IMG/VR virus record: IMGVR_UViG_3300008262_003053
Location: 1 to 46,422 of that record
DNA length: 46,422 nt
Reading direction: 5' to 3' (one strand)
Source of the DNA: a virus
Shown here: positions 8,440 to 39,463 of the stretch, piece after piece
How positions within the stretch are numbered: the stretch's first letter is position 1
How the letters are laid out: every line of letters begins with the position of its first letter
Notes under the pieces: model-generated
The model's database searches: none
Told to the model about the DNA's origin: nothing
What the model saw: the letters and a program-made list of their open reading frames with translations, nothing else
Position numbers and translations under genes: made by a program

Positions 8440-8447
8440 GTTAAATA
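8440..8447 (+). promoter_or_regulatory. T4-late-like promoter, operon head of 8454
   Basis: GTTAAATA matches six of eight bases of the T4 late element TATAAATA. Six nucleotides separate it from ATG 8454, so a start with T4 geometry would fall at about 8453. No Shine-Dalgarno is present between them. It is the first of seven such elements in the central block. Confidence 0.55.
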
Positions 8448-11090: not shown

Positions 11091-11757
11091 CTGGACTCCT
11101 TTTTACAAGTATGCAGACGAAGGATTTCGTGGAATGGCTCAACAAACGTATGAGCCGTTGATAAATCCTGAAAGAACAGTTTTATGTGCTAACTACAATA
11201 TAAACAATTCTTATCAATTTAAACACGGCCCTAGGCCACTTTACACTCTAGACGTAGTTGATTGGTTTTTTGAAAATGAATTAAAATATGTGACAAAGTT
11301 TAAAAACAAGTCATACATGCCAATATTGTTAGATGTAGATAAGAATAACAAAAAGATTTTCTATGAATGGAACGGCTACTCTCTAAACGAGTTGTTGTTC
11401 GAAGGTCGTGATGTAGAATGGAAAGAACCAATCAAGAACATTCTGCTGGACTTGTATAAAGAAAATACTTATAAATTAACCATGTATCCCCACTGTCATT
11501 TTATCGATAAACATGGCGTGATGAAAGCTATTGATTGGTACGGTTGTGTTTCTGTATCCGAACCTTTTATAGAAACCAAATACATGGATGGCATTATACA
11601 TGAAACTGCAATTTTCAGATTGAAAGAAACAGGCGACATTATTGATGAAAAATATAATTTAGAAATTATGTTTAAGCAAGGATTACTGCATCATGTAAAA
11701 TGGAATAATTCCTCATTAGAATACATATATAAAGAAATTTTTAACAATGACAGATAA
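11077..11757 (+). CDS. Kinase-fold-like protein (degenerate)
   Basis: In this 226-residue protein the C-terminal part, PHCHFIDKHGVMKAIDW (about residues 138-154), resembles the catalytic and metal-binding loop of aminoglycoside or protein-kinase-like folds (H.d.N...dg..k.iDw), but the usual Asp and Asn are replaced. An N-lobe-like segment (VTKFKNKSYMPILLDVD...FYEWNGYSL) precedes it. It may be a pseudokinase or an unusual phosphotransferase. The gene at 24032 shares this layout and also neighbours a radical SAM gene. This is my reading of fold-like patterns, not a firm family call. Confidence 0.45.
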   Translation: MNTDNWTPFYKYADEGFRGMAQQTYEPLINPERTVLCANYNINNSYQFKHGPRPLYTLDVVDWFFENELKYVTKFKNKSYMPILLDVDKNNKKIFYEWNGYSLNELLFEGRDVEWKEPIKNILLDLYKENTYKLTMYPHCHFIDKHGVMKAIDWYGCVSVSEPFIETKYMDGIIHETAIFRLKETGDIIDEKYNLEIMFKQGLLHHVKWNNSSLEYIYKEIFNNDR

Positions 11758-14109: not shown

Positions 14110-15265
14110 CAGACTAGAACCAGTTAATCCACAAGTATTCCATGTTGACTGGGAACTAACTTTAAAATGTAATCTTGATTGCGGATATTGCGGAAGTCAT
14201 GACAATTCAAAGAAACATCCTTCATTAAAAGAATGTCTAGAAACAGTTGATTTTTTATTAGAGTATACTGACATAAATTTTATTGATAGTGCATTAGAAC
14301 ATAAAAAAGTTATATTCAATCTCTTTGGTGGTGAGGCAATATATCATCCAAATTTTATAGAAATTGTAGAATACATTCGTAGCGAGTACGAATTAAAATA
14401 TAAGAACAACTGGAAGTTAGAGCTAGGGCTAATAACCAACGCTATTGCTGCTGACAAAATTTGGGATAGGACTATAGAACTGATTGATTCGTTTACTATA
14501 AGTTATCATGCAGAGAATAGTGAAAAACAAGAAAAACAATTTAGAAGAAATGTGTTAGCTTTACATCAAAAGACAAATGGGTATCATGTTGCAGTATTAA
14601 TGAATGCACCATTGTTTCATAAGAACTTATCTTTTATAGATTTTTGTAAAGAACACGGAATAAAATATTTGCCTCGACAACTTGATCACTGGGGGTGGTC
14701 AACCAAAAAGTACAACTATACTGAAGAGCAAGTTCAATGGTTTGATGGAGTATATAAAAGAAAAAGCACCAAACCTTTACCCAGCATTAAGATAGAGAAC
14801 ATAACAAAGCCCAAGATTAAACTTGCAGACAAAATTAAAGGCATACTTAAAAAAATAGTAAACTATCGAATTAACATGACTAATATTGGTAGAGCATGTT
14901 GCGGCGGCGAAACATTATGTGTTGATGGTAAGTTTGACGAAAAAGTATTCTTTGTTCCCGACAACAGATTTAAAGATTGGCATTGTAGTGTTAATAGATT
15001 TTTTGTCTTTGTAAAACAGGATGATCAAAGTATTCGACACAACAAAGATTGCAGGATGAGATTTGACGGGCGAGAAGGTCCAATGGGTTACTTAAAAGAT
15101 TCAAGAACAATTTTAGATAAGATGAAAGAAGAAATAACCTTAGGAACTAGACCTGTAATTACCTGTAAAAAGAAAATGTGTTTTTGCGGATTGTGTGCTC
15201 CAAAAGCAAAAACTCTAGATACATACACTACTATGATGACTAGGTATATCAAGAATGTTGCATGA
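14096..15265 (+). CDS. Radical SAM protein, CCGG type
   Basis: This 389-residue protein has CNLDCGYC (Cys25, 29, 32), a LFGGEAI motif (SAM-binding GGE, variant), and a distinctive C-terminal Cys layout: RACCGG, then DWHCSVNRFFVF, NKDCRMRFD, and CKKKMCFCGLCAPKAK. The same layout appears in the protein at 16498 (NCCGGRC, GWYCSVNKYFL, HQTCQAKF, CPNNRCGCGMCVPKAK). It overlaps the previous gene by 14 nt and the next by 11 nt. Substrate unknown; the rich auxiliary cysteines suggest one or two extra clusters. Confidence 0.8.
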   Translation: MQNFNRLEPVNPQVFHVDWELTLKCNLDCGYCGSHDNSKKHPSLKECLETVDFLLEYTDINFIDSALEHKKVIFNLFGGEAIYHPNFIEIVEYIRSEYELKYKNNWKLELGLITNAIAADKIWDRTIELIDSFTISYHAENSEKQEKQFRRNVLALHQKTNGYHVAVLMNAPLFHKNLSFIDFCKEHGIKYLPRQLDHWGWSTKKYNYTEEQVQWFDGVYKRKSTKPLPSIKIENITKPKIKLADKIKGILKKIVNYRINMTNIGRACCGGETLCVDGKFDEKVFFVPDNRFKDWHCSVNRFFVFVKQDDQSIRHNKDCRMRFDGREGPMGYLKDSRTILDKMKEEITLGTRPVITCKKKMCFCGLCAPKAKTLDTYTTMMTRYIKNVA

Positions 15266-16514
15266 TGTAAAATTAAAATTAGATAAAGTTGGGCCTGGTT
15301 TTTGTTTAGAAAAATGGACCAGTGCTGTTTTTCATCTGCAAAAAGGAAGCACAAATAGCTGTCACCATTGTAAGGGACACGTTATTCCACTTGAAGTAGT
15401 TAAAGAAAATATACACACTATTCATAACACTCCAATTAAAAAAGAACAAAGAAAAATAATGATAGAGGGCGGTTGGTCAAACGAATGTGACTATTGTTCT
15501 GTTGTAGAAAAACAAGGCGGTGTAAGCGATCGGATCATAGTAAGTGGCCGGGAACGAAGTTGGAAACATTATGATTCTATAGTCAACAATTGGAGTCAAG
15601 ATTTTAAACCCACTAATATTGATGTATCATTTAACAATGTTTGTAACTTAGCTTGTAGTTATTGCGGCCCACATAGTAGTACTACTTGGGTTAAAGACAT
15701 TGAAGAAAATGGCAACTATCCAAATAATTATAATGATATACCTGCGGACCTTCAACTAGTGGTTTCTGAAAATCCGTACATAGAACCTTTTTGGCAATGG
15801 TTTAAAGAAGTACACTCCGGCCTTAACAATTTGGTAATCAATGGCGGCGAACCTTTGATGATTAAAGAAACTTATCGTTGTTTAGAATACATATTAGAAC
15901 ACCCTAATAAAAATTTGGATGTTACAATAAACTCTAACCTTTGTGTTGAAGAAAGATTAATTGATAAACTAGTTGAAATTATTCAAAAAATAGAACAAGG
16001 AAACCATGTTAGAAGTTTGTCAATTTATACAAGCAACGAAGCACACGGTACTCAAGCAGAGTATATAAGGAACGGTCTTAATTACAAAACTTGGTTAAAA
16101 AACATTAACAGAGTTTTAGAGTCTTCACCGACGGTTAAAGTTGGTTTTATGGCCAATTATAACTTGTTGTCTGCTTTTAGTTTTATTGATTTGTTAAAAG
16201 ATGTAAAATCTTTAATTGATCAATATTCTGAAAGGAGAATTATTTTTATGCCAGGATACATTAGACATCCAGAATTTCTTAGTGTTAGGTTGTTGCCAAT
16301 AGACTATCGGCACAAGATAGTTGAAAGTTTAGACTACATAAAAACACATTTTATCAATCAACAAACTAAACTAAGATTTGAACAAGTTTTAACCTACTAC
16401 GACGCAAAACAAGAAACAGATTATTCTAAGTTCAAAGAATTCATATTAGAATTTGATCGTCGGAGAGGTATTAATTTTAAAGAAACATTTCCTCAGCTCA
16501 GTAGTTTATTTTAA
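15255..16514 (+). CDS. Radical SAM protein with N-terminal twitch-like domain
   Basis: This 419-residue protein has an N-terminal Cys-rich domain (Cys17; CHHC, Cys36 and 39; CDYC, Cys78 and 81) ahead of the core CNLACSYC (Cys130, 134, 137) and INGGEPLM. The N-terminal arrangement differs in spacing from its paralogues at 11747 and 18420 but ends in the same way (LRG/RGINFKETFPQL-type tail). It is the last gene of the plus operon and overlaps the end of the converging gene 16498-17550 by 17 nt, with no hairpin terminator seen between them. Confidence 0.8.
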   Translation: MLHDVKLKLDKVGPGFCLEKWTSAVFHLQKGSTNSCHHCKGHVIPLEVVKENIHTIHNTPIKKEQRKIMIEGGWSNECDYCSVVEKQGGVSDRIIVSGRERSWKHYDSIVNNWSQDFKPTNIDVSFNNVCNLACSYCGPHSSTTWVKDIEENGNYPNNYNDIPADLQLVVSENPYIEPFWQWFKEVHSGLNNLVINGGEPLMIKETYRCLEYILEHPNKNLDVTINSNLCVEERLIDKLVEIIQKIEQGNHVRSLSIYTSNEAHGTQAEYIRNGLNYKTWLKNINRVLESSPTVKVGFMANYNLLSAFSFIDLLKDVKSLIDQYSERRIIFMPGYIRHPEFLSVRLLPIDYRHKIVESLDYIKTHFINQQTKLRFEQVLTYYDAKQETDYSKFKEFILEFDRRRGINFKETFPQLSSLF

Positions 16515-18427: not shown

Positions 18428-19670
18428 AAGGTTTAAACTCCGGAACTACATCTAATAAACTTTGTCCTCGAGTCGCATCAAGCCGTTTGTTAAATTCAAC
18501 AAATTCAGGCCACAAATGATACATATCTCTTGCTTGTAGATAGTTAATGTTGTCTTGTATTTGTTGATGTGTAACTTTTCCTAGTAACGGATTTTTCTTA
18601 ACTGCACTCCAATCGTCTACATGTGATTTAACTTCTAACAATCTTGTAATTGCCAAGGATTTTAAATCGTTGGGTAGCACTTGTGCTGACAGACAATTAG
18701 GATAACTTACGCGATGACTGTAAAACACAATACCCATGCGATTAATGAAATAATCAATGCATTCCGCTGTCTGTAATATGTTGCCGCCCTGTGCTGTGAA
18801 TGCTCCAACGACTCTACTAACATTTGGTATCTTTTGTATTTCTCTAATGTTAGCCTCCACCTGATGAAAGTCACCGTTACCGCGAATGTAATTATAAACA
18901 TCATGAATGCCGTCAATGCTGACATTAACGGCAACACTTCTAAAATATGGCCAATAGTCATGTATAGTTCTTCCTTTGCTAATTCCTAAAGTTGTGCCAT
19001 TTGTGGCATACTTAATTTCAATGTTAGCACCATATGGTTTTAACATATCTAATATTTTGTAGTGCTGGGGATCCATTAAGGGCTCGCCGCCAGCAAATTC
19101 TACTCTCTTAAAGTAGGGTAATAGTTTTTCAAAACTTGTCCACCATTTATCAGTATCATCAAATGGTCCAATGTACTGTCCTGGTTTTTTAACTAAACGT
19201 TCTACTGTAGGTACAAGATAATTATTTTCTTTTTTGTAAAACGGAACTACGCTATCCCAATCTTGCCAACTTGTACTATCTAGTGGGTTGCACATACGAC
19301 ACTTTAAGTTACATAGATTGTTAAGTTTAATCTCCATTGTTGGAAATTCAAAAGGTAATACTTCTTCTAGTACTGCGTTAGGATAAAGATTAATACGTGC
19401 TTCTGGTATTACACCGTTTATATGCCGCTGACGTAAACTTTCAACTCCTTGATCCTCTAGATCAAAACATGGTTTACACACATCCGGGCGTTCACCGCAT
19501 AATACTTTTTTGCGTACATCACGCATTATTGGACCGTTCCAAATGCTTTCTAAGCTGTCGTCTTGAATCCAACCAATTGGTTGGCTACGGCAACAAACTT
19601 TAATTGCACCGTCTTCTCTGGTTGCCAAACCCGTAAAAGGGTGCATACAAAATGTTTTACTATTCTTCAC
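18420..19670 (-). CDS. Radical SAM protein with N-terminal twitch-like domain; GTG start
   Basis: This 416-residue protein has a Cys-rich N-terminal domain (KTFCMHPF with Cys8, VCC at Cys26-27, C65 and C68) and core CNLKCRMC (Cys120, 124, 127) plus FAGGEPLM. GTG 19670-19668 is the start because the conserved KTFC segment lies only a few residues into the frame; the next ATG (residue 9) would remove Cys8. No Shine-Dalgarno precedes it; a CTTAAATA late-type element is 4 nt upstream. First gene of the minus-strand three-gene module. Confidence 0.8.
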   Translation of the reverse strand: MKNSKTFCMHPFTGLATREDGAIKVCCRSQPIGWIQDDSLESIWNGPIMRDVRKKVLCGERPDVCKPCFDLEDQGVESLRQRHINGVIPEARINLYPNAVLEEVLPFEFPTMEIKLNNLCNLKCRMCNPLDSTSWQDWDSVVPFYKKENNYLVPTVERLVKKPGQYIGPFDDTDKWWTSFEKLLPYFKRVEFAGGEPLMDPQHYKILDMLKPYGANIEIKYATNGTTLGISKGRTIHDYWPYFRSVAVNVSIDGIHDVYNYIRGNGDFHQVEANIREIQKIPNVSRVVGAFTAQGGNILQTAECIDYFINRMGIVFYSHRVSYPNCLSAQVLPNDLKSLAITRLLEVKSHVDDWSAVKKNPLLGKVTHQQIQDNINYLQARDMYHLWPEFVEFNKRLDATRGQSLLDVVPEFKPYV

Positions 19671-19674
19671 GATA

Positions 19675-19682
19675 TATTTAAG
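19675..19682 (-). promoter_or_regulatory. T4-late-like promoter, operon head of 19670
   Basis: CTTAAATA on the minus strand, 4 nt before GTG 19670, with no Shine-Dalgarno in between. It matches the T4 late element TATAAATA at six of eight bases. It stands back to back with the plus-strand element at 19697-19704, 14 nt away. Confidence 0.55.
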
Positions 19683-19696
19683 TCATAATAGTAGCA

Positions 19697-19704
19697 CATA
19701 AATA
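19697..19704 (+). promoter_or_regulatory. T4-late-like promoter, operon head of 19709
   Basis: CATAAATA, seven of eight matches to TATAAATA, lies 4 nt before ATG 19709 with only TTTC between them. Transcription starting with T4 geometry would begin at or near the start codon. Confidence 0.6.
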
Positions 19705-19708: not shown

Positions 19709-20377
19709 ATGATTACAAGATTAGAGTCCAAAGTTTCAAATTTAATGTTAGAAGAAGCTTTAAAATCTTTACCAGATTTTGAAAAACGTATTACTTTGAA
19801 TCAACCAACGGGTAATTTTTTTTACGATCCTTGGGAAATCAAATTAGAATTTAAAAATACAATTTGGGAAGATATTCTAAAAAGCCTACCTTTTAACAAA
19901 GGCGAAGCTAGAATTATAAAACTAGACCCCGGCGAAAGTTATCTGTGTCATGCAGATATAGACAATAGGTGGCATCTTAATTTAAAAGGGCAACAGTCTT
20001 ATCTCGTTGATCTTGACGAACACGTTCTTTACCCTACTGATGCCGATGGGTTCTGGTACAATATGAACGCAGGAAGATTACATTCTGCAAGTAATTACGG
20101 TCCCACTGAACGGTTGCAATTAGTTGTAAGACAACTGTTAAAACAATCTGTTCATGAAGATTTAGTTTTAATAGAAATTGTTTCTGTAAGTAGAGAAAGA
20201 TTTAGATATAATTTTGATAATATTATTAGTCCTTGGTTGAATCAAGAAGCAAGTAAGGGAAATATATCAAATTTTTTCTACGACGGAAACGAATTAGTAA
20301 GATTTGGTTTACATATAGACTCTGTTCCAAATCTTGAAAAATTAATAACAAAAGATTTTAAAATAACTTATGCCTAA
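19709..20377 (+). CDS. HxD...H iron oxygenase-like protein (Asp/Asn hydroxylase type)
   Basis: This 222-residue protein has a double-stranded beta-helix metal triad: CHADID (His81, Asp83) and, 42 residues later, GRLHSASN (His125), followed by TERLQLVVRQL, where an Arg would bind 2-oxoglutarate carboxylate. This matches aspartyl/asparaginyl beta-hydroxylase-like and cupin-type oxygenases. The C-terminal 75 residues are an added helical part. Substrate unknown; peptidyl or small-molecule hydroxylation is plausible. It starts the plus operon 19709-22553 and overlaps the next gene by 8 nt. Confidence 0.7.
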   Translation: MITRLESKVSNLMLEEALKSLPDFEKRITLNQPTGNFFYDPWEIKLEFKNTIWEDILKSLPFNKGEARIIKLDPGESYLCHADIDNRWHLNLKGQQSYLVDLDEHVLYPTDADGFWYNMNAGRLHSASNYGPTERLQLVVRQLLKQSVHEDLVLIEIVSVSRERFRYNFDNIISPWLNQEASKGNISNFFYDGNELVRFGLHIDSVPNLEKLITKDFKITYA

Positions 20378-20948
20378 ATATGTTGGTACAACAGAAAATA
20401 TTATAGATTGGGATCCTATTATCCAGATTTGTAAAGCCAGTGACACTGGAGATTTTAACTCGGTTAAAACTGTGGTTGATAGGTCTGAGTCTCATTGGCA
20501 ACAGGACTTAGAATTATTAGGATCCTATCGAGAAGTGATCAAGCTATGGCAAGATGCTGGGTATGATTTAGGTAAAATAGAATGGTATGATTATTACCCA
20601 GGAAAACATTTTGATATTGAAGTACAAAACAAATTTGCTGACATAGTCAATGCTGATCCTAGAAGAGTTTTTGTCAGCGAGCTATGGCCAGGCCGATGTG
20701 TTCCTAAACACTGGGATGTTGAAGACAAAGAAAAAGAATGGCTAGCAGAAGGGAAATTAAAACGTTGGGTAGCATTCATGGACAAGCCTCGTGCAGGCCA
20801 TGTGTTGTTGTTTGAAAACAGTGACGCTTTTTATAATATACCACAGCACGAGATTTGGGAGTGGGATGATTACAGGAACTGGCATGCTGGGACCAATTGT
20901 GGATTTGAACCTTATTATTTGTTTCATTTTTTAGGAAAACCTCGATGA
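20370..20948 (+). CDS. HxD...H iron oxygenase-like protein
   Basis: In this 192-residue protein, PKHWDVED (His114, Asp116) and NWHAGTNCG (His172) give the HxD...H triad of a cupin-fold oxygenase; YYPGKHFD lies upstream, where the core fold begins. The next gene encodes a clear paralogue with the same blocks (LHWDVND, LWHAGSNCGLEP). Both are shorter than typical aspartyl hydroxylases. Overlaps of 8 and 4 nt with the flanking genes show co-translation. Confidence 0.7.
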   Translation: MPKYVGTTENIIDWDPIIQICKASDTGDFNSVKTVVDRSESHWQQDLELLGSYREVIKLWQDAGYDLGKIEWYDYYPGKHFDIEVQNKFADIVNADPRRVFVSELWPGRCVPKHWDVEDKEKEWLAEGKLKRWVAFMDKPRAGHVLLFENSDAFYNIPQHEIWEWDDYRNWHAGTNCGFEPYYLFHFLGKPR

Positions 20949-21490
20949 TTGAATATATAGGAAATTGTTCACAACACATCAATTGGGATGACGTAATTAG
21001 ACAATGCGAAAATAATTCTCCTGAATTTATCGGCCCCAGTCATAAGAAAGGCGATGATATTCCAGGACTTAACGAAGTAGCAGACTTATGGGAACAAGCA
21101 GGATATAAGAATTTAAAAGACGGTGGGACTGTAGGTTGGGGTATGTATATGCCAGGAAAACAGTTTGATGAACGGTCTTTGCAAAAGTTTTGTGAAATAT
21201 TTAAAATTGAAAAATACTATACTGCTTGGATTAGTCGGATTGATGTAGGGTGCCTTGCTCCGTTACACTGGGACGTCAATGACAATGAAGAAAAATTATC
21301 TAAGTTAGACCCTGTAGTTAGATACCATTGCCATATATCACAACCAAAATTTGGCCATATCTTTATAGCAGGGGATCAATGTTTTTATAATCAGCCGCAA
21401 GGATCTACTTTTAAATGGAGTGACAGAAAATTATGGCATGCTGGTTCTAATTGCGGACTGGAGCCTAAATATATTTTAAATCTATGGTAA
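20945..21490 (+). CDS. HxD...H iron oxygenase-like protein, tandem paralogue
   Basis: This 181-residue protein parallels the preceding gene product: IDWD near position 14 versus INWDD, YMPGKQFD versus YYPGKHFD, LHWDVND (His108, Asp110) and LWHAGSNCGLEPKYIL (His165). The triad is intact. Divergence is large enough that the duplication is old. It overlaps the preceding gene by 4 nt and the next by 7 nt. Substrate unknown. Confidence 0.7.
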   Translation: MIEYIGNCSQHINWDDVIRQCENNSPEFIGPSHKKGDDIPGLNEVADLWEQAGYKNLKDGGTVGWGMYMPGKQFDERSLQKFCEIFKIEKYYTAWISRIDVGCLAPLHWDVNDNEEKLSKLDPVVRYHCHISQPKFGHIFIAGDQCFYNQPQGSTFKWSDRKLWHAGSNCGLEPKYILNLW

Positions 21491-21954
21491 CTATGAAAGT
21501 TTGTATTACAGGAACAACACGAGGTATTGGAAAAATACTAGCTGAACATTTTAAAAAATTAAAATGGCAGGTCGTAGAACTTAACCGTGGAGATGCTATA
21601 ATTGAGTCTTCTATAGGATGTGATTTGTTTATTAATAACTCATACATCAACGGACACCAAATAGATATCTTTAATCAATTATATACTAAGGTTGCTAAGA
21701 TGATAGTTATGGGAAGTATTGCTTCTGACCATCCCGATCCTGCAATGCCTGAATATAGTATACACAAAAAAGAATTAAAAGAACAAGTGTTAAGAATTGC
21801 TAACTCTGCAGAATTGAATAAAGCAGATATTCTGCTGTTACAATTAACAGGAGAAAGTTATAACGACTCTAAATTAATAACTCGTACTATAGATTTTTGG
21901 TTAGATTATCCTAAAATAACATGTATATCATTTATACCAGGAAAACAAAATTAA
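21484..21954 (+). CDS. Short-chain dehydrogenase/reductase, short form
   Basis: This 156-residue protein has a Rossmann nucleotide motif ITGTTRGIGK and a catalytic YSIHK (Tyr91, Lys95) preceded by MGSIAS, so the SDR triad is present. It is much shorter than the usual 240-250 residues; the region after the active site is reduced. It may start at the second ATG (21493, MKVCITG). The next gene encodes a related SDR, giving a tandem pair. The two stop and start codons share a base (TAATG). Confidence 0.7.
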   Translation: MVTMKVCITGTTRGIGKILAEHFKKLKWQVVELNRGDAIIESSIGCDLFINNSYINGHQIDIFNQLYTKVAKMIVMGSIASDHPDPAMPEYSIHKKELKEQVLRIANSAELNKADILLLQLTGESYNDSKLITRTIDFWLDYPKITCISFIPGKQN

Positions 21955-22553
21955 TGGAAAAGAAAATTGTTATAACAGGTCATACTGGTGGTATTGGAAA
22001 ATCTATATACGATACTTTTAAAAAAGGTAGCTGTAGAGAAATTGTAGGGATGAGCCGCAGTAATGGATACGACATTGATAAAGATTTTGACAAGATAGTA
22101 GAAGAAGCTTCTGGCGCTGAAATCTTTATCAATAATGCATATAGGGATCAACAACAATTAAAATTATTACAAGTACTTAAAAACAAAGTTGATATGATGG
22201 TTGTTATGGGTAGCGTAAGTAGATTCTATCCAGAAATTATTCCTACAACGTATGTCTACGACAAACAAGCCTTAGCCGAGGAATGTAGAAAAGTTAGTTT
22301 AGATCCTAAGGGCATTCCATTGTTACATCTGGATCTAGGTTTTATTGAAGGCACAAAACTGCAAGACGATGATACTACAGGATTTTTAAGTGACTATACA
22401 ACAAGTCATCAAGACATTGTTGATACTATTATTTTTTGGACACAGCACCCTGTAGTAAGGCAAGTTGAATTTAGATGGAAGCTCACTCCCTATTTAAAAG
22501 AACAATTATATAGAGTCAATCCAAATTTAGATCCAACGAGGATAACGATTTAA
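21954..22553 (+). CDS. Short-chain dehydrogenase/reductase, short form, tandem paralogue
   Basis: This 199-residue protein begins at ATG 21954 (TAATG with the preceding stop); the frame is open upstream, but MEKKIVITG is the family-like start. It has TGHTGGIGKS, MGSVSR and YVYDK (Tyr100, Lys104). It ends facing the converging GNAT-like gene with a 27-nt overlap. Similarity to the previous gene is clear at the nucleotide-binding and active-site blocks. An oxidoreductase for an alcohol or sugar; the substrate is unknown. Confidence 0.7.
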   Translation: MEKKIVITGHTGGIGKSIYDTFKKGSCREIVGMSRSNGYDIDKDFDKIVEEASGAEIFINNAYRDQQQLKLLQVLKNKVDMMVVMGSVSRFYPEIIPTTYVYDKQALAEECRKVSLDPKGIPLLHLDLGFIEGTKLQDDDTTGFLSDYTTSHQDIVDTIIFWTQHPVVRQVEFRWKLTPYLKEQLYRVNPNLDPTRITI

Positions 22554-23081: not shown

Positions 23082-24039
23082 GTATTACTGATTCCTGTGT
23101 TCGTTTAAAACTGTTAGTTCCACACATATCACACTCTGCAATAGCAAAATATTTTCCTACATGAAACTTTGCTATATCTCCGTCAGAGCATGTTTCTAAA
23201 TCTAAATGTCTATAATTTAAATATTTTTGCCAGTCAGGGTCATCTAACACATTATGATACTCTAATAGTTTTTTAAGAGTTCCAAGTGCTGCACATTTAT
23301 AAAGTTTTTTATCTATTAAAAAACTACACATAGGACTACTGCAACCTTGCTTGTAAGATACGTGAGGTAATCCAGTTGCATGGGGTTTAGGTTTTCCATT
23401 TGTTAGAACATAATTTTTTTTAAAATCATCTTGCGGCCTAAAGTGTAAGAAAATATTGTCGTTATGATAATATTCGTCTTGCGGTTGGTCTTCTAAATAA
23501 TACTCTTTGCGCTCGTCTATCCACTTGCCCCAGTACGGGTCTTTTTTAGGATTGTTTAATTTTAAAAATTCTTTAAAAAATTTGTTTGAATCGCCTCTAT
23601 TAAGTTCAAGTTTGCTTACTAGTTGATTAACACCATCAGTTATCCGATTGGTCATATCTTTATCTACTGCTGAGAAATGATTACATACCATTACACTACA
23701 ATGGTATGTTTGCATGATATCCGATAGCTGATCAATCTTTTTTGAAAGTAATGTTCCGTTAGTTGAAATAAAAATAGTTGTTTCAGTATCGTAACTTCTG
23801 ATATACTCTATAATCTTAGAAACTTTATCTAAATTTAAAAGAGGTTCGCCGCCGATTAAACTGTAAATTTCAATCTCAAACTTTTCTCTGGCCAACCTAA
23901 TACCCTCTAGAATATTTTCTAGGCTAGGGTCTTGTTCATCTGTTCTAACAACATCACTTCGTGTGTCACATTGTACACATGCTAAATTGCATTTTGATCC
24001 ATAATAGATATCAAGTAATTTTAAATAAGGCTTAATCAT
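23056..24039 (-). CDS. Radical SAM protein
   Basis: This 327-residue protein has CNLACVQC (Cys17, 21, 24) close to the N-terminus and SLIGGEPLL. Later Cys occur in QGCSSPMC, KKLYKCAALG and AECDMCGTN, resembling a SPASM region. The protein is flanked by a kinase-like protein upstream and a GNAT-like one downstream, with overlaps of 8 and 26 nt. The radical SAM plus kinase-like pair matches that at 10002-11757, but with the order reversed. Confidence 0.8.
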   Translation of the reverse strand: MIKPYLKLLDIYYGSKCNLACVQCDTRSDVVRTDEQDPSLENILEGIRLAREKFEIEIYSLIGGEPLLNLDKVSKIIEYIRSYDTETTIFISTNGTLLSKKIDQLSDIMQTYHCSVMVCNHFSAVDKDMTNRITDGVNQLVSKLELNRGDSNKFFKEFLKLNNPKKDPYWGKWIDERKEYYLEDQPQDEYYHNDNIFLHFRPQDDFKKNYVLTNGKPKPHATGLPHVSYKQGCSSPMCSFLIDKKLYKCAALGTLKKLLEYHNVLDDPDWQKYLNYRHLDLETCSDGDIAKFHVGKYFAIAECDMCGTNSFKRTQESVIHVHTKRME

Positions 24040-24727
24040 AGATTGCTTTTGCTTCTTCTATAAAGTCATGAGGAAAATTATTTTTAAAACTCTCGAATGC
24101 CAACATTTGTAATTGCTTAAAGGAGGTCGGCATATTGATGTCAATGTTCATAGATTGCATTTTTGGTATTAATTCTTTTCGACGATCCTCACTAATATGG
24201 CTCATAACATCTTTTACTGATATGGGTGCATCGTTATCTCGATAACAGAAAAAATAGTTAATACTTTTTAATTTTCCATCAACAACAAAATAACTGCTAG
24301 GATGCAAACTATATTTGTAAATGCCTAATGTTTTATGAGCTCTAAATATATCTAACATTTGTTCGCGCCAACTAGGCAAAACACTATCATAGTCCTGTTC
24401 TTCAGGCCCTGCTGCTTGCCAAAAATCTATACCATCAATTTCCAAATACAGTTTACGATAATCTAAATCAATTTTAAGTATTTTAGGTATTAAGTCAGGA
24501 AACCTGTTTCGCATCTGAGTCATGTAATTGACTTCCCGCAACCACTTTTCCTCCATTAGAGAAGAATCTATAACTTGATTTTTCCCTTTGTGATAATCTG
24601 TATCATTATGATACCATTTGCAAAACACTTTCTTATCAGTGCTAATAAGACTGGTATAGATTAGATTATTTCTGCAAAGTCCTTTTCCAGGAACATCGTT
24701 GTAGTAATATTCAAAACTTTTTTCCAT
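24032..24727 (-). CDS. Kinase-fold-like protein (degenerate), paralogue-like to 11077
   Basis: This 231-residue protein is read from the inner ATG at 24727, where CTAAGTA lies 4 nt upstream; the frame is open to 24751, but that start has no comparable element. It has an N-lobe-like stretch, then YKYSLHPSSYFVVDGKLKSI then NYFF, which resembles the catalytic loop of kinase-like folds (LHPsNylV..GkLksIdf) with the key Asp replaced. A pseudokinase or an unusual transferase is possible. It precedes a radical SAM gene with 8 nt overlap. Confidence 0.45.
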   Translation of the reverse strand: MEKSFEYYYNDVPGKGLCRNNLIYTSLISTDKKVFCKWYHNDTDYHKGKNQVIDSSLMEEKWLREVNYMTQMRNRFPDLIPKILKIDLDYRKLYLEIDGIDFWQAAGPEEQDYDSVLPSWREQMLDIFRAHKTLGIYKYSLHPSSYFVVDGKLKSINYFFCYRDNDAPISVKDVMSHISEDRRKELIPKMQSMNIDINMPTSFKQLQMLAFESFKNNFPHDFIEEAKAIYD

Positions 24728-24731
24728 GCAG

Positions 24732-24739
24732 TACTTAGC
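24732..24739 (-). promoter_or_regulatory. T4-late-like promoter, operon head of 24727
   Basis: GCTAAGTA on the minus strand, 4 nt before ATG 24727 (CTGC between). The same octamer precedes ATG 32902 on the plus strand. It stands back to back with the plus-strand element at 24741-24748, one base apart. Confidence 0.55.
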
Positions 24740-24740
24740 T

Positions 24741-24748
24741 GATAAGTA
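24741..24748 (+). promoter_or_regulatory. T4-late-like promoter, operon head of 24754
   Basis: GATAAGTA on the plus strand, 5 nt before ATG 24754 (CATGT between). A T4-type start six bases after the element is exactly the A of the ATG. No Shine-Dalgarno is present. Confidence 0.6.
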
Positions 24749-24753
24749 CATGT

Positions 24754-25569
24754 ATGATTAAAGGTATTGGTGGACAGCCCTATATAAATTTAGACCCCTA
24801 CATTGATGTTTTGGGTTTTCAAAATCTTCATCCTGAAATTTGTAAAGGATTTGCAATAGCAAGAGACTTTGCAAAGGAAGGCACTTGGATGACGCCAGGT
24901 TATAAATTTGACGATATGAGTTATATTATAAACTGGAAACCAATTTATAAAGCATTTGACGAGTACCAAAAATTACCAGATGATCATCCTATAAAGTTAC
25001 AAGGACAAGAAATATTTCCAACAGACTTTAAAGATTACAAACAGCGCAATGTGTTTACTCGATATTTAAAAGCTGCTTTAGGTGCAAACGACCCTTACAT
25101 ATATTATTTCCTTTGGGAAGAAGGAGATTGGAACAACCGAAACGGTGTACGAAATCCAACACCAATACAACAACATTTCCCTGGAGTAGTACAGTGGGTT
25201 GAAAATTTAATTGATAATAATGTTATCAAACAGATAGGTCGGGTAATATTTTTTCATTGCGAACATAACGGGTTAGCTTTTGAACACAGAGATTTAGATG
25301 CCCGTAATGGAGTACTTGAAAATAATTATTATACTACACACCGCCATGAATTTATACATATTAGATACAGAACTAAACGAGGGTTTTATGTATGGGATCC
25401 TGATACAAAAAACAAAGTCTATATAAATTCCAACGCTGCATTTTGGAATGACGAGGATTGGCACGGTGGCGATTGTTCAACTGAACAAGAATATGGTATG
25501 AGGGTTGACTGTGTATTCACTGATGAATTTAGAAAAAAGATCGGAATAGATCATTTAGAAGGTTATTAA
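24754..25569 (+). CDS. HxD...H iron oxygenase-like protein, long form
   Basis: In this 271-residue protein, AFEHRDLD (His178, Asp180) and DWHGGDC (His237), about 57 residues apart, give the HxD...H triad, with YGMRVDCVF downstream suiting a 2-oxoglutarate-binding Arg. The N-terminal 160 residues are additional and are rich in aromatic sequence. It resembles the other HxD proteins only in the core. First gene of the plus operon 24754-28323; 1 nt separates it from the next gene. Confidence 0.65.
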   Translation: MIKGIGGQPYINLDPYIDVLGFQNLHPEICKGFAIARDFAKEGTWMTPGYKFDDMSYIINWKPIYKAFDEYQKLPDDHPIKLQGQEIFPTDFKDYKQRNVFTRYLKAALGANDPYIYYFLWEEGDWNNRNGVRNPTPIQQHFPGVVQWVENLIDNNVIKQIGRVIFFHCEHNGLAFEHRDLDARNGVLENNYYTTHRHEFIHIRYRTKRGFYVWDPDTKNKVYINSNAAFWNDEDWHGGDCSTEQEYGMRVDCVFTDEFRKKIGIDHLEGY

Positions 25570-25570
25570 A

Positions 25571-26170
25571 ATGAAAGAAGTTGTATACAGTGAAATGCCA
25601 AAAGTGGTGCTTTATGAAGATGTATTAGATCACGAGTTTTGCGACTATGTAATTAACAAGTTTACTAAGGCCGGGATGAACCCTAGAGCAGGTTGGGAAT
25701 CCTATCAGCAGTCAGATGGGCAAGTTCACGAAGGTATAGAACAGCGTAACATAAGTTGGAATACTCCCCAAGAAATTAGAGAATACTTTTGGGCAATCAT
25801 AACACGAGTAACCGGTGTTCCTCGCAGTCATATAGAAGCAGGAGACATTTATAGATACGATGCTAGTCAGTTTTTTGATTTACACGTAGACTACCCTGTT
25901 GATCCTAAGAGAATTGATTATTATAAAAATGGCGGTGACAGAAAACATACTGCTATCTTTTATCTTAACGAAGATTACGAAGGCGGAGTTTTAGACTTTC
26001 CTGTTTTAGGATTTTCTATTAAACCAAAAAAAGGATCTATGGCATGGTTAGAATATGATTATCCAGACGAAATAGTTAATCAAAATAGTGTGCATGAATC
26101 TACTCCTATCTTAAAAGGTGAAAAGTGGATCTGTGCTACCTTTATAGCAAATGGACCTAGAGTTGAATAA
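25571..26170 (+). CDS. 2-oxoglutarate/Fe(II) dioxygenase, prolyl 4-hydroxylase type
   Basis: This 199-residue protein has the full P4H/PKHD-type pattern: YRYDASQFFDLHVDYP (His105, Asp107), an HTAIFYLNEDYEGGVLDFP strand, then VHESTPILKGEKW (His175 with Lys182 or Lys185 for 2-oxoglutarate). It is the most canonical oxygenase in the block. Typical substrates are prolyl residues in peptides or free amino acids; the one here is unknown. It begins 1 nt after the previous stop and ends just before the next radical SAM gene. Confidence 0.85.
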   Translation: MKEVVYSEMPKVVLYEDVLDHEFCDYVINKFTKAGMNPRAGWESYQQSDGQVHEGIEQRNISWNTPQEIREYFWAIITRVTGVPRSHIEAGDIYRYDASQFFDLHVDYPVDPKRIDYYKNGGDRKHTAIFYLNEDYEGGVLDFPVLGFSIKPKKGSMAWLEYDYPDEIVNQNSVHESTPILKGEKWICATFIANGPRVE

Positions 26171-26171
26171 T

Positions 26172-27101
26172 ATGCAAGAAAAAATAAAGTTAACAGAGAA
26201 TCTTGGAATCATCGTTAACAATTTGTGTAACTTAACGTGTAGTCACTGCACAGGTCTAGCCTTGTATGATTTTCTTGGAACATTCAAATGGACAGATTGG
26301 GAACATAGATATAAAAAATGGGCGGAATTAATTGACGTTGATGCTATATCATTTGCAGGTGGTGAACCATATTTACACCCAGAGCTTGAACTATGGTTTG
26401 ACAACATTAGAAATTTATGGCCTACTGCTAGATTAGAAATGTATACGAATGGAACTAGATTGTCCAGAAGAAAAGAACTTTCAAGAAAGTTTATTGCAGA
26501 CGGCAATACTAATCTTATTATTTCCTGTCATGACGAAAGTATGTTTGATCAAATGCATCAAGATGCATTAGATATTCTTGAGCCGTGGATAGATCAACTT
26601 AGAAAAACAGAAAAAGAACATGTTGAATTTCAACAACCTAGAACTATAAAATATTTTCTTAATAATGTTCCTGTGTGTACTGTACAGCAAATTACAGAAA
26701 TGGCTCCGCCCTATCATAAGATTGTAGACAACGGAACGTTATATTTTGAAATGAACGGCGATCAAGAAGAAAGCCACTCTAAATGTCCTTGGAGAGACAA
26801 CTACACTTTGCAACATGGATTACTTTACAAGTGTACGGCATTGACTAATTATCCCGAAGCTAAACTACAGGTCAAATTTGAAGATGAAGCAGTAAGGATA
26901 TTAGATCAACATCCTGGATGTGATCCGTTTGACGATACTGAAATAATTAAAAAGTTTATTAACAACTTGCCTAATTCTGTAAGTGCCTGTAGTTTGTGTG
27001 CTTTTGATAAACAAAAAGATACGTTGTCACTGAGCAGAAAGGTTGTCTTAGATCCAAGCAAAAAAACTAAGATGCGCCAATTTAAAATAAAACAAATTTA
27101 A
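26172..27101 (+). CDS. Radical SAM protein
   Basis: This 309-residue protein has CNLTCSHC (Cys19, 23, 26), SFAGGEPYL and C-terminal cysteines (KCPWRD, YKCTAL, then CSLCAF), again SPASM-like. ATG 26172 follows the preceding stop by 1 nt; an upstream in-frame ATG at 26151 would overlap the oxygenase gene. It lies between two oxygenase genes in one operon, so the pair may act in sequence on one substrate, which is inference. Confidence 0.8.
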   Translation: MQEKIKLTENLGIIVNNLCNLTCSHCTGLALYDFLGTFKWTDWEHRYKKWAELIDVDAISFAGGEPYLHPELELWFDNIRNLWPTARLEMYTNGTRLSRRKELSRKFIADGNTNLIISCHDESMFDQMHQDALDILEPWIDQLRKTEKEHVEFQQPRTIKYFLNNVPVCTVQQITEMAPPYHKIVDNGTLYFEMNGDQEESHSKCPWRDNYTLQHGLLYKCTALTNYPEAKLQVKFEDEAVRILDQHPGCDPFDDTEIIKKFINNLPNSVSACSLCAFDKQKDTLSLSRKVVLDPSKKTKMRQFKIKQI

Positions 27102-27103
27102 TC

Positions 27104-27598
27104 ATGAATTATTTAGGCAACTACATCGATTGTATCAAAGATGAATGGATAGATGAAATACTATCCATGGAGGGTAAAGCCAGACCTAGAGATTGGCCTC
27201 CTGCATATAAACACGAAAGTTATGAATACGATCGTGCCAAAGAAGCAGGATACGATTTAAACGGAGTTCATTGGTATGTAATAGACAAAGGTGAAACTAG
27301 TTTTGAAATTACGTTTCCTTTTTTAAAAAATGAATTTCACTGGTGGGTTACAAAACTATATCCTGGTCAGTTTATGCCTATGCATTCCGATCCGCATGTA
27401 CACGGACGTAATGCGATACGATATTGGATGCCGTTACAAGATTATATTCCTGGACATATTTTTATTATAAATGACCAACTTATTACAGGATACAAAAAAG
27501 GCGACATGTATTCGTTTGTTGATTCCCAGGACATACATGGTGCAGCCAACATTGGACATACAGTTCGATTATCTTTATTGATAACGGATTATCTATGA
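27104..27598 (+). CDS. HxD...H iron oxygenase-like protein, short form
   Basis: In this 164-residue protein, PMHSDPH (His94, Asp96) and DIHGAANIG (His145), 49 residues apart, form the metal triad. Preceding KLYPGQF matches the segment LYPGQ/LEPRE seen before the HxD in its relatives at 20370, 20945 and 29445. Two nucleotides separate it from the preceding gene; the ATGA overlap with the SGNH gene shows coupling. Substrate unknown. Confidence 0.7.
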   Translation: MNYLGNYIDCIKDEWIDEILSMEGKARPRDWPPAYKHESYEYDRAKEAGYDLNGVHWYVIDKGETSFEITFPFLKNEFHWWVTKLYPGQFMPMHSDPHVHGRNAIRYWMPLQDYIPGHIFIINDQLITGYKKGDMYSFVDSQDIHGAANIGHTVRLSLLITDYL

Positions 27599-28323
27599 AG
27601 ATAGGGTTCTTTGGCGATAGCTTTTGCATGGAGGAAAGCAACTTTCACAGTTGGGGCAAAGGTTATGAAACTTATATACGTAAACTCAAAAAACATTATG
27701 AAGCTGAAATAGTTTGCCTAGGACACGGTGGAAGTTCTGTTTGGGATGTCATATTAAATCAATTTCCGCAACACCAAGACAATTTACCAGATGTAAGTAT
27801 CTTTTGCTGGACCGACTGTCATAGGCTGTTTAATACAAAAATTAGAAATATAGGACTATGGGTATTAGACCCGGTGCATCGAAAAGACCCAGTTGTTAAT
27901 GCTATACATTGGTTCAATCGAAAAACATACGATGCAGCTAGGGAATACTATACTCACATACACGATGAGGAAAAGGCTATTAGGGAGATGCAAGCGGCCT
28001 GGTATCACTTTGATACAACTGTACTAAAGCCTTTAGAAAGCAAAACTAAAATTATCCATATGTGGAGTTTTGGTAATATACAAAAACGCAATACAGATCG
28101 CTCAGTGGATCCAGAGAATGTAACATACGATTATAGATGGTCTTCGGGAATGGAAATAAGACCGTCTCTGTCTTGTTTCAGACACGAAGGTCCTAAATTT
28201 CATCATGCAGCAAATCACATAGGTACAGATGAATCGAACTCAAAAGTAGCCGATGTAATTATCAATGCTATAGATAACTACGAAAGTGGAAAATTAGTAG
28301 TTTACGATAAACCTTGTAGGTAA
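27595..28323 (+). CDS. SGNH/GDSL-type hydrolase
   Basis: This 242-residue protein has FFGDSFCM at the N-terminus (Ser9 in the GDSF block), GHGGSS (glycine and oxyanion blocks), a TDCHR segment and, near the C-terminus, HAANHIGTDESNSKVADVI, which could supply the catalytic His. The catalytic Asp before it is not certain. Such hydrolases deacylate sugars or lipids. Last gene of the plus operon; its end abuts the converging gene at 28324. Confidence 0.65.
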   Translation: MKIGFFGDSFCMEESNFHSWGKGYETYIRKLKKHYEAEIVCLGHGGSSVWDVILNQFPQHQDNLPDVSIFCWTDCHRLFNTKIRNIGLWVLDPVHRKDPVVNAIHWFNRKTYDAAREYYTHIHDEEKAIREMQAAWYHFDTTVLKPLESKTKIIHMWSFGNIQKRNTDRSVDPENVTYDYRWSSGMEIRPSLSCFRHEGPKFHHAANHIGTDESNSKVADVIINAIDNYESGKLVVYDKPCR

Positions 28324-32867: not shown

Positions 32868-32875
32868 TACTTATA
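32868..32875 (-). promoter_or_regulatory. T4-late-like promoter, operon head of 32862
   Basis: TATAAGTA on the minus strand, seven of eight bases of TATAAATA, 5 nt before ATG 32862 (ATATT between). A T4-type start would fall on the A of the ATG. It faces the plus-strand element at 32889-32896 across 13 nt. Confidence 0.6.
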
Positions 32876-32888
32876 ACATCAGCTGACA

Positions 32889-32896
32889 GCTAAGTA
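32889..32896 (+). promoter_or_regulatory. T4-late-like promoter, operon head of 32902
   Basis: GCTAAGTA on the plus strand, 5 nt before ATG 32902 (TTATT between). It is identical to the octamer before ATG 24727 and has no Shine-Dalgarno between it and the gene. Confidence 0.55.
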
Positions 32897-32901: not shown

Positions 32902-33648
32902 ATGATAACAGCCCTAGAATTCTACAAAAATAACAAAGATTGTGTTTGGAAGGTTGAACCTATACCAAATTATCTATCTTCGAATATTGACAAGGCTAGG
33001 TGGATTTTAAATGATGCTAACATTGGCTGGATTGAACTTGATATTGATATTGACCTTGCGGGCTGGCAATTAGAAGCACAAGCAGCATCACCGTATTTTG
33101 TGACACATAGAGAAGATAACAATACTGGATGGAACAGTTGTTGCATTCATGGCATAGATATAGATAAAACAGGTGCATGGACAAACTACGGCTATACTGA
33201 CGAAGAACAAGTTCCGTACAATTGGACAGAGGTGGCACACAAATCTCCTGTGGTTAAACGATTTTGGAATGATATCTTTCCTGCCAACAAGTATAGAAGA
33301 ATTCGATTTATGGAATTAGAACCAAATTCTGTAATAACACCCCATAGTGATATGCCTGGAAAATTACCGGGCGAAAACAACTTCGACTCATTAGATTTTG
33401 GAGTACCTGTTAATATAGCTGTGATACATCCTAAAGACTGCTTCATGGTAGTAGAAGGGTATGGTGTTGTTCCTTTTAAAGAAGGCAAAGCCTTTATTGT
33501 CAATATACGCAATTATCACAGCGTAATAAATTTTAGTAAACAATCACGAGTACATGTTATTGGACATCCTTTTGGATACGGTACTAACAAAGAATCATTT
33601 GCAGAGCTTGTAGTTAGAAGTTATGAAAAAATGTTAGGGGAAAACTAA
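32902..33648 (+). CDS. HxD...H iron oxygenase-like protein
   Basis: In this 248-residue protein, ITPHSDMPG (His148, Asp150) and RNYHSVINF (His206), about 58 residues apart, form the metal triad, with FSKQSRVHVIGHPFG downstream offering an Arg. The N-terminal 130 residues are specific to this protein. It starts the plus operon 32902-38204; the following GTG gene begins 1 nt after its stop. The position before an adenylate-forming ligase suggests a tailored acyl or amino substrate, which is inference. Confidence 0.65.
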   Translation: MITALEFYKNNKDCVWKVEPIPNYLSSNIDKARWILNDANIGWIELDIDIDLAGWQLEAQAASPYFVTHREDNNTGWNSCCIHGIDIDKTGAWTNYGYTDEEQVPYNWTEVAHKSPVVKRFWNDIFPANKYRRIRFMELEPNSVITPHSDMPGKLPGENNFDSLDFGVPVNIAVIHPKDCFMVVEGYGVVPFKEGKAFIVNIRNYHSVINFSKQSRVHVIGHPFGYGTNKESFAELVVRSYEKMLGEN

Positions 33649-33649
33649 A

Positions 33650-35095
33650 GTGGTTATAACAAGAGACTTTATAAGTGAAAATTTTAATTTTACTGACCTA
33701 CGTTCTTCCAATAATGTAACATATACTAAACAAGATTTAATAACAAAAATAGATTATTGGAAGTATTTGTTAAAGTATGAGTACAAGGCTACAACAGGCG
33801 AATCAATACTCATTGGATTGCAAAAAATTGGTGTTGATTATTTTGCAATAATTTTTGCAGCGGCCGAGCTATCTCTTAAAATTGTTGTAGTCGATTATAA
33901 CAGAACTGATAATTTTAAAAATGCAGAATACAATGATCCAAAAACAAAATTGCTAGCACCTATTGATATTTTCTTGCACGACTTTCCCAGTAATGTAATA
34001 GAAGAAGACAGAAGTGCTTATGCAAAGTATTTGTTTTTTAAAAAATATTCAAATAAGACTATTAGTACAGTAGATGTAATCGATGTTACTATTGATAATA
34101 CGTTGTTAAGCCAAATATCTAAGATACGGCCTAGTCCTACTGATATATTATTTAGAGTAACAAGCAGTGGAACAACTGATGTTCCTAAAGTTATTGAACA
34201 CACGCACGAGTATATTTTTGCTATCTCAATTCGAAACTCTGAACTATACAAAGGAACAGCTTTACACGTAAGTAATCTTAATCACGGTGCAAGTGCATCG
34301 GTTACATTATTGCCGTTACTTGCAAATGATCAGGTAGATAGACATTTGTTTTACGATTGGGATCCAGACTCGATAGGAAAGATGGTTGATTCTGTTGCTC
34401 CTTTTAAAGACGAGTTAGGATACTTGTCATTTCCATATCCATTTTTGATTGATAAATTTATTGAAGTTAGCAAAGCTAAAAATGTAAAATGGCCTAAGCT
34501 GGATTTAATTACCTTATCTTATATTTTAGAAAGTGGCAAACATGCAGTCCGTGACGGAATCTTTAACAGTATAACAAGTATATTTGGATCTAACGAAACA
34601 TTAGGGCCGTTATTTTTTAATAAAGCAGATTCTGTTAACTGGGATATTGATTCTCGATACTACCTAATGTATGATGATTTTTATAAATTGAGTCTTTCCT
34701 CGGACGGAAAACTTACAGTAACCGTTCCTGTATACAATAAAGAAGTTACAACAAACGATTATTTTGAAAGAGACGGTGCTTATTATATACATCGTGGGCG
34801 TTCAGATATGTTTAGGATTAATGGTGAAACTGTTAATTTAAGTACAATTAATGATTTAAATAAACAACACACTGATACTTACATAGTTGTTGATACATTA
34901 AATCACTGTTTGTATCTTGCCTGCTGGAAAGAAATAGATGATGCAACAATACAAGATATCAAAAAAGATATTGAAAGTAATTTCAATAGAATTAAAATTA
35001 CAAAGATAGTTCATTTAGACAAAGCAAATTTTTATTATGGTATTAAGATAGATAACGAACTTCTTCGCGAACACTTTAGAGCATACAATGTTTAA
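33650..35095 (+). CDS. AMP-dependent acyl-adenylate ligase
   Basis: This 481-residue protein has the ANL P-loop TSSGTTDVPKVIEHTHE (about residues 169-185), a motif resembling GSNETLGP (Y/G..TE block) and, toward the C-terminus, YYIHRGRSDMFRINGE, the hinge Asp/Arg region. These features suit adenylation of a carboxylate; no carrier protein is encoded nearby, so the acceptor is unclear. It begins at GTG 33650 with AGGGGAA 9 nt upstream, one of the few good ribosome sites here. The frame ends with an 8-nt overlap into the small membrane gene. Confidence 0.75.
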   Translation: MVITRDFISENFNFTDLRSSNNVTYTKQDLITKIDYWKYLLKYEYKATTGESILIGLQKIGVDYFAIIFAAAELSLKIVVVDYNRTDNFKNAEYNDPKTKLLAPIDIFLHDFPSNVIEEDRSAYAKYLFFKKYSNKTISTVDVIDVTIDNTLLSQISKIRPSPTDILFRVTSSGTTDVPKVIEHTHEYIFAISIRNSELYKGTALHVSNLNHGASASVTLLPLLANDQVDRHLFYDWDPDSIGKMVDSVAPFKDELGYLSFPYPFLIDKFIEVSKAKNVKWPKLDLITLSYILESGKHAVRDGIFNSITSIFGSNETLGPLFFNKADSVNWDIDSRYYLMYDDFYKLSLSSDGKLTVTVPVYNKEVTTNDYFERDGAYYIHRGRSDMFRINGETVNLSTINDLNKQHTDTYIVVDTLNHCLYLACWKEIDDATIQDIKKDIESNFNRIKITKIVHLDKANFYYGIKIDNELLREHFRAYNV

Positions 35096-35336
35096 TAAAC
35101 ACTTAGAAACAAGTAAAGTTACCTATATAAAGCACTTGTATTGGGCGATAGTTGCAGGACTTCGTTTGATTTATGCAGGTGTATCAAGTATAATACATGG
35201 TATTATACCTACATTGTTTAATGGCACAGCGCCAAAACAGATAATAGATATCTATCACAATCATCTTGAAGATCATCCTAATCCGCAATATAAAGAGATG
35301 ATAAAACAAGCTAAAGAAAATAAAGATAAGTTATGA
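35088..35336 (+). CDS. Small membrane protein, DUF6356-like
   Basis: This 82-residue protein has one strong hydrophobic segment, about residues 17-45 (LYWAIVAGLRLIYAGVSSII then HGIIPTLF), flanked by charged regions. The layout (short N-terminus, YIKHLYWA, LRLIYAGVSSIIHGIIPTLF then NGTAP) resembles DUF6356, small membrane proteins found near capsule and sugar genes. Its position between an acyl ligase and a halogenase is tight, with overlaps of 8 and 4 nt. The family call is from memory of its typical shape. Confidence 0.55.
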   Translation: MFNKHLETSKVTYIKHLYWAIVAGLRLIYAGVSSIIHGIIPTLFNGTAPKQIIDIYHNHLEDHPNPQYKEMIKQAKENKDKL

Positions 35337-36574
35337 AAACAATAGCAGTTGTTGGTGCAGGATCTTCTGGATATTTGACAGTACTTTATTTCTGTACAAA
35401 ATACCCCGAGTATAAAATTAATTGGATATATCCTGAAAATAATCAACCTATTGGTGTAGGAGAAGGAACTGTTCCCCAACTGTTATCGTTTTTTAAAGAT
35501 ATGGGGATACCTCTAAGAACTATAATTGAAGAAATTGGAGGCAGTTTAAAGCTAGGAATTAAATTTGAAAACTTTAAACAAGAAACATTTTATCATCCGT
35601 TTGGCGGACCTATCGAAGAAAAATTTGAGCTTGCATACATGATGGAACATAATAGGGTTTCTGATAACATTGAAAATTATGATATTGCTTTTCACTTTAG
35701 TGTAGCTACACTTGCTAAATTTTTAGACAAGTGGTTTAAAAAATTTAATAACCTTACAATAGAAAGAAGAACTGTACCTACAGTGGACGAGATTGATTGT
35801 GATTGGATAGTAGATTGCACAGGATTTAAAAGAACATTTGTAAATCAATACTATAATGATAATTTCAAATCAATAGCACATTTAATACCCAACAACAAAG
35901 CACTGGTGTATAGAACAGCTATACCAGAACATAAACGATTTGCCTACACAACCTGTATAGGTATGAAGCATGGATGGATATGGAATATTCCATTAAAAGA
36001 TGAAATTGGAATAGGATATGTTTACTCTGATGAATACGATGTTAAAGAAGAATTCTTAGATTACTTGGAACAAGAAGGGTTTGGCAGACCAGAACTTCGT
36101 GAAGTTCCTATGGTAACCGGAAGAAACAAAAAGCATTGTGTTAATTTAGGAAACAAACAACTTGTTGCAGTGGGGTTAAGTAGTGCATTTATTGAGCCAT
36201 TAGAGTCTACAGGATTGAAATTTACCTTTGATGGAATTAAATGGTTAGATGAATTAATACGAGGAGACATAACTCATGAGCAATATGACGAGCATGTTAA
36301 TTATGAGTTTGACGTAACCCTTGATTTTATTATAGCACATTATAAGTATAGCCACCACACAAATGAATACTGGAGTTTTTTTAAAAATACTCCTATAGAA
36401 CTATACAGAAGAAACAAAACATTTTTTCAAGGTAGCTGGGCATACATCTTACAAGATAGTGCCATTTTGTCTCAACTGTCATCAGATGAAAAGTATAGGA
36501 TAGCAGTCAAGCACAAGACTGGTAATACTTATTCTAGTTGGTTTAAAAATTATATTTCTTCAAAAGATAAATGA
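35333..36574 (+). CDS. Flavin-dependent halogenase-like protein
   Basis: This 413-residue protein has the FAD motif VGAGSSGYL at the N-terminus, GVGEGTVPQL, SLKLGIKF with the Lys73 that corresponds to the catalytic Lys of PrnA-type halogenases, and WIWNIP (residues 215-220), the family signature that blocks monooxygenation. The size is below the usual 500 or more, mainly through a shortened C-terminal region. Activity needs a reduced-flavin source, which I do not see here. Known members halogenate tryptophan or related aromatics; the phage substrate is unknown. It overlaps both flanking genes by 4 nt. Confidence 0.85.
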   Translation: MKTIAVVGAGSSGYLTVLYFCTKYPEYKINWIYPENNQPIGVGEGTVPQLLSFFKDMGIPLRTIIEEIGGSLKLGIKFENFKQETFYHPFGGPIEEKFELAYMMEHNRVSDNIENYDIAFHFSVATLAKFLDKWFKKFNNLTIERRTVPTVDEIDCDWIVDCTGFKRTFVNQYYNDNFKSIAHLIPNNKALVYRTAIPEHKRFAYTTCIGMKHGWIWNIPLKDEIGIGYVYSDEYDVKEEFLDYLEQEGFGRPELREVPMVTGRNKKHCVNLGNKQLVAVGLSSAFIEPLESTGLKFTFDGIKWLDELIRGDITHEQYDEHVNYEFDVTLDFIIAHYKYSHHTNEYWSFFKNTPIELYRRNKTFFQGSWAYILQDSAILSQLSSDEKYRIAVKHKTGNTYSSWFKNYISSKDK

Positions 36575-39455: not shown

Positions 39456-39463
39456 TATTTATT
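39456..39463 (-). promoter_or_regulatory. T4-late-like promoter with leader, for tail-fibre gene
   Basis: AATAAATA on the minus strand, seven of eight bases of TATAAATA, lies 47 nt before ATG 39408. A leader of about 42 nt with a GGAG Shine-Dalgarno follows, unlike the central block elements, which are only 4-6 nt from their start codons. Confidence 0.55.

Follow-up and report, generated by a model that had tools for sequence, protein, structure and literature searches.

What does the inverted repeat between two divergent operons in this phage DNA represent, and how can both operons be served from so little sequence? The 46,422-bp virus record analysed here in its entirety (the window) is a contig of an uncultured T4-like phage that carries a T4-type rIIA gene. 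Its cassette (8454 to 38204) consists of seven gene runs on alternating strands and contains radical SAM/SPASM, 2OG-oxygenase, Asp/Arg-hydroxylase-like, tryptophan-halogenase, epimerase and other genes. The tryptophan-halogenase match, at 35333–36574 in the same cassette as the radical SAM and oxygenase genes, is strong (PF04820, E 3e-59). The evidence collected below makes it probable that the repeat consists of two T4-type late promoters standing back to back, both of a near class that should give rise to leaderless mRNAs.

Opposed boxes between the divergent operons

The initial annotation described late elements facing away from each other, one per strand, at the central intergenic region and at two further sites, and the sequence bears this out: 24732–24748 reads TACTTAGCTGATAAGTA, 19675–19704 reads TATTTAAG-N14-CATAAATA and 32868–32896 reads TACTTATA-N13-GCTAAGTA. 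The spacings of 14 and 13 nt given originally are gaps between 8-mers; measured between hexamers the gaps are 5 (24732–24748), 18 (19675–19704) and 17 bp (32868–32896), so that the central palindrome is the tightest of the three. The interval 24727–24756 named at the outset extends from the minus-strand start codon to the last base of the one on the plus strand.

TAA[AG]TA lies 4–6 nt ahead of every first gene of the cassette (8454+, 19670−, 19709+, 24727−, 24754+, 32862− and 32902+; Table 1). Because each first gene has its own box, all three divergent pairs within the cassette carry two opposed elements, one per strand and 4–5 nt ahead of the start codon, and the intergenic regions indeed hold little beyond these two boxes. 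At the cassette edge, the divergent pair 8239−/8454+ has an element on the plus side only. The start of the minus-strand gene is most likely 24727 rather than 24751, the position given by the longest open reading frame, because the 231-aa form is kept in relatives. The 271-aa plus-strand gene had no match in Pfam or PHROG; its box is retained in nine relatives (L003, L007–L010, L012 and L018–L020). The gene starting at 19670 is a near-class gene with a GTG start, which is unusual if its mRNA is leaderless as predicted; its homologue in one relative (G005, 19807) has an ATG 5 nt past its box.

Table 1. Coordinates of boxes and first genes in the window
Feature	Position	Strand	Remarks
Late-type box GATAAGTA, plus operon 24754–28323	24741..24748	+	5 nt to ATG
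Late-type box GCTAAGTA, minus operon 24727–22527	24732..24739	−	4 nt to ATG at 24727
Late-type box CATAAATA, plus operon 19709–22553	19697..19704	+	4 nt to ATG
Late-type box CTTAAATA, minus operon 19670–16498	19675..19682	−	4 nt to GTG
Late-type box GCTAAGTA, plus operon 32902–38204	32889..32896	+	5 nt to ATG
Late-type box TATAAGTA, minus operon 32862–28324	32868..32875	−	5 nt to ATG
Near-class box GTTAAATA, first cassette operon 8454–16514	8440..8447	+	6 nt to ATG, unpaired
Far-class (leadered) box AATAAATA	39456..39463	−	47 nt ahead of tail-fibre-like gene 39408–38161, whose ATG is preceded by GGAG
231-aa gene, first of minus operon	24032..24727	−	Start codon 24727
271-aa gene, first of plus operon	24754..25569	+	34 relatives in viral contigs

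The hexamer as such is unremarkable, TAAGTA alone not being over-represented (35 seen, 44 expected) and the exact TACTTA-n(0–30)-TAAGTA pair being mildly enriched (2 seen, 0.35 expected; 3 of 100 shuffles reach 2). What stands out is where the element lies relative to start codons, not how frequent the hexamer is. When two-sided pairs were defined by a start codon 3–7 nt beyond each element, the search at divergent starts found 14 of them in nine contigs (the window and its relatives), whereas 59 permuted motifs averaged 0.86; the highest counts among these, seven pairs, come from motifs in which the ambiguous base has changed place and which match TAAATA as before. The pattern TACTTA-n-TAAGTA-n-ATG matched 12 of 27 relative records and its reversed control none of the 27. 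A general viral collection served as negative control: among 120 stretches matching the one-sided pattern, a single one was two-sided with open reading frames, the gaps look flat and the matches are mostly chance.

Modularity, as originally suggested, is supported by the different combinations in which gene families meet at such promoters (nine family pairs in the gene-content set). The divergent partners of the 24754 gene differ among relatives, and in one of them (L016, around 5900–6001, inspected by eye) the end of the homologue of the 24032 gene is co-directional and abuts just upstream of the 24754-gene homologue, so that two genes which are divergent in the window have too little space between them here for a promoter. 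This distribution of pairs agrees with the modular view, in which pairs may arise by the addition of operons. Relatives of the 32902 gene were found at two loci only.

Near and far boxes in relatives and cultured phages

The TAAATA-to-start distance in the nine contigs is bimodal, with a peak at 4–5 nt (23 and 29 sites, 52 in total), few sites at 8–15 nt and a broad peak at 18–30 nt. There are thus two classes of late promoter: a far class, 16–45 nt from the start codon and usually accompanied by a Shine-Dalgarno sequence, and a near class, at 4–5 nt, without one. Shine-Dalgarno sequences precede 101 of 153 far but 8 of 68 near starts, the latter being about the rate at random positions (9%; all genes, 47%), and 62 of 63 near-class start codons are ATG, as expected of leaderless genes. 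The near-class logo (68 sites) contains no upstream conserved hexamer and no information at −35. Within these genomes, near and leadered boxes have the core TAA[AG]TA in common, and the first two bases of the 8-bp box are variable; the late box of Aeromonas phage Aeh1 is likewise variable at −13/−12 (PMC2988020).

Near boxes are almost confined to operon starts. They precede 44 of 126 divergent genes and just 4 of the 506 that are tightly packed, with co-directional genes separated by 15 nt or more in between (15 of 236); the distribution is promoter-like and not that of a ribosome site. In relatives they stand before the genes for the terminase large subunit (G005, 143106), the gp25 baseplate wedge (G005, 69821) and a tail-tube protein (G014, 160549). 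Of the 44 different sequences compared upstream of gp25, 34 keep the near box, and nine of the other ten have a Shine-Dalgarno sequence instead. In 24 of the 34, a G-run immediately ahead of the box fits the Shine-Dalgarno pattern at long distance, and readthrough mRNA may therefore be translated differently.

A gp55-like late sigma factor (phrog_234) is encoded in five relatives, and none was found in the window itself, which is a 46-kb fragment. Together with the box sequence and its use before terminase, gp25 and tail genes, this supports the proposed identity of the elements as late, and it is compatible with the shared late activator that had been postulated. One gp55 homologue (L160:16022–16849; G005 76022–76849) is about 275 aa long, with a long N-terminal part, compared with 185 aa in T4. 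Pfam models for gp33 (PF16805) and the clamp (PF02916) had no matches in the relatives, PF02916 having recovered the T4 protein and PF16805 being run without a positive control.

At the DNA and protein level, the cassette genes searched for were not found in any cultured phage; for the radical SAM gene there are only matches of about 25% in three Vibrio phages, and neither this gene nor the 24754 gene has a match in the SAR11 phage HTVC008M. The near class itself is present in cultured phages. HTVC008M has 13 near-class TAAATA sites (mean for permuted hexamers 1.0), placed exactly at annotated start codons of genes for a 2OG oxygenase, CsgF, DNA end protector, head closure, tail tube cap, gp25, baseplate wedge initiator and tail completion; its virion genes with near boxes include gp2, gp4 and gp25. 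It differs from the window in that its boxes are mostly TATAAATA or CTAAATA followed by GT and that single boxes at co-directional genes dominate, with one back-to-back pair (18922–18937, gap 4) between gp2 and gp4. The SAR11 phage Mosig has six near sites (1.6 for permutations) and the OM43 phage Melnitz three (0.6), whereas T4, P-HM1, S-PM2 and DSL-LC03 have zero or one, equal to chance expectation. Since the near class is present in some cultured phages and absent from others, T4 and three cyanophages among them, it is not a trait of the whole T4 superfamily; that it is tied to particular hosts is our guess. The gp25 box is kept while its distance shifts from 5 nt in HTVC008M to 8 in Mosig, 16 with a Shine-Dalgarno sequence in Melnitz and 22 in S-SSM5.

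Start-site geometry and spacing classes

The T4 late box starts at −13 and spans −13 to −6, and −35 is not conserved (PMC2988020). An 8-bp box ending at −6 leaves five bases to +1, so a 5-nt spacing puts +1 on the A of the ATG; at 4-nt spacing the same rule gives +1 at the second base of the codon, and starts must shift by 1 nt. Near-class transcripts should accordingly have their 5′ ends on the start codon or no more than 1 nt from it and lack a leader, a property that we infer from geometry with an accuracy of about 1 nt. In the proposed mechanism, RNA polymerase with a phage gp55-like late sigma would read the box NNTAA[A/G]TA at −13 to −6 and need no −35 element, and with the start codon 4–5 nt past the box the resulting leaderless mRNA would be translated without a Shine-Dalgarno sequence. 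As neither a leader nor a −35 region is required, two promoters would fit into the 26–54 bp between divergent start codons; both polymerases would then occupy the same DNA, so the promoters are predicted to be mutually exclusive and should fire alternately, not simultaneously. The initial annotation, whose interpretation is partly supported, overlooked the predicted leaderless mRNAs, the start at 24727, the predicted polymerase exclusion and the three spacing classes.

Across 70 distinct two-sided pairs, which are not independent of each other, the hexamer gap is 4–5 (17 pairs), 17–19 (44), 22 (1) or 32 bp (8), with no other value within 0–60. The smaller gene-content set comprises nine gene-family pairs; one of these occurs with gaps of 5, 18, 19 and 32, and every spacing class is found with at least two family pairs. 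Common ancestry of whole promoters accounts for part of the classes, gap-32 promoters being similar to each other in sequence, and a physical constraint on gap values is possible. The classes step by about 13–14 bp across different gene pairs. The T4 sliding clamp is credited with extending the upstream footprint by 13 bp (PMC2988020), a value that the steps resemble; this may be coincidence and we do not claim it as the cause. In gap-18/19 promoters one side has a longer conserved stretch, about TTATAGTAGCA[CT]ATAAATA (window 19685–19704 and many relatives), which suggests an extra element upstream of the box.

Other readings and relation to known promoters

Three other readings were weighed, and all ranked low against opposed late promoters. 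The dyad could be an operator: TACTTA-n-TAAGTA would then be the binding site of a dimeric regulator of the phage that acts on both operons, and the box itself would not be a promoter. The 17-bp palindrome TACTTATCAGCTAAGTA is kept in several relatives, even with a different upstream gene, as such a site might be, but a dimer's site sits poorly with gaps ranging from 4 to 32 bp, with unpaired boxes that are equally common at the same 4–5 nt distance (63 near sites, 14 two-sided pairs) and with the identical box at larger distance ahead of Shine-Dalgarno genes; we regard an operator as very unlikely. Slightly harder still to credit is TAA[AG]TA as a translation signal in the mRNA that replaces the Shine-Dalgarno sequence, for instance through pairing of UAAG with the 16S 3′ end. 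The element does occupy the Shine-Dalgarno position in genes that lack one, and TAAG matches the start of TAAGGAGG. Yet the majority of near boxes read TAAATA rather than TAAG, the gp25 box stands at 5, 8, 16 or 22 nt in different phages, and tightly packed genes hardly carry it (4 of 506, against 44 of 126 divergent genes). Least probable of all is a host sigma70 origin, in which the pairs would be two-way promoters of the ordinary kind described from E. coli and Salmonella. Divergent starts from pseudo-symmetric −10 elements have been reported before (PMC12825309, PMC10268837), but the box here is TAA[AG]TA and not TATAAT, has no −35 signal and also stands ahead of genes for terminase and baseplate, and the predicted start-to-start distances are about 26–27, 39–41 and 54 bp instead of the usual 10, 18 and 23.

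With opposed late promoters as the preferred reading, we give roughly even chances to the broader view that a dedicated late programme built on leaderless mRNAs operates in several marine phages of the T4 superfamily, with a second gp55-type promoter class that places +1 on the AUG, often in mutually exclusive two-way promoters with few allowed spacings. Such a programme may suit hosts that are good at translating leaderless mRNA, and the two-way promoter may be a joint for operon reshuffling. If the reading holds, virion genes (gp2, gp4, gp25 and terminase) should be expressed without leaders in marine T4-like phages, including cultured HTVC008M, where this is directly testable, and the box-to-start rule can be used for correcting start codons in such genomes. 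It further suggests how large accessory cassettes could be rearranged with minimal regulatory DNA, one two-way promoter of less than 55 bp per operon pair.

Searches of the open-access literature brought up no description of T4-like phages with leaderless late promoters. The core promoter type is already known, and the back-to-back, putatively leaderless form would be a variant of it. As in T4 late promoters (TATAAATA; gp55, gp33 and gp45), the 8-bp box has the same core, a conserved −35 is absent, the box stands before late virion genes and relatives encode gp55 homologues. Unlike in T4, the first two positions are relaxed, the fourth base of TAARTA is A or G, opposed pairs are common and a large class lies 4–5 nt before the start codon, where T4 has no such sites. 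With the bidirectional promoters of E. coli and Salmonella (Warman, Middlemiss, Grainger) the pairs share opposed elements too close for simultaneous polymerases (PMC12825309), their start codons being 26–54 bp apart, from which we infer the exclusion itself. They differ from those promoters in using a phage late box instead of the sigma70 TATAAT, in a predicted start-to-start distance of 26–54 bp rather than 10, 18 or 23, and in being predicted to yield leaderless mRNAs on both sides.
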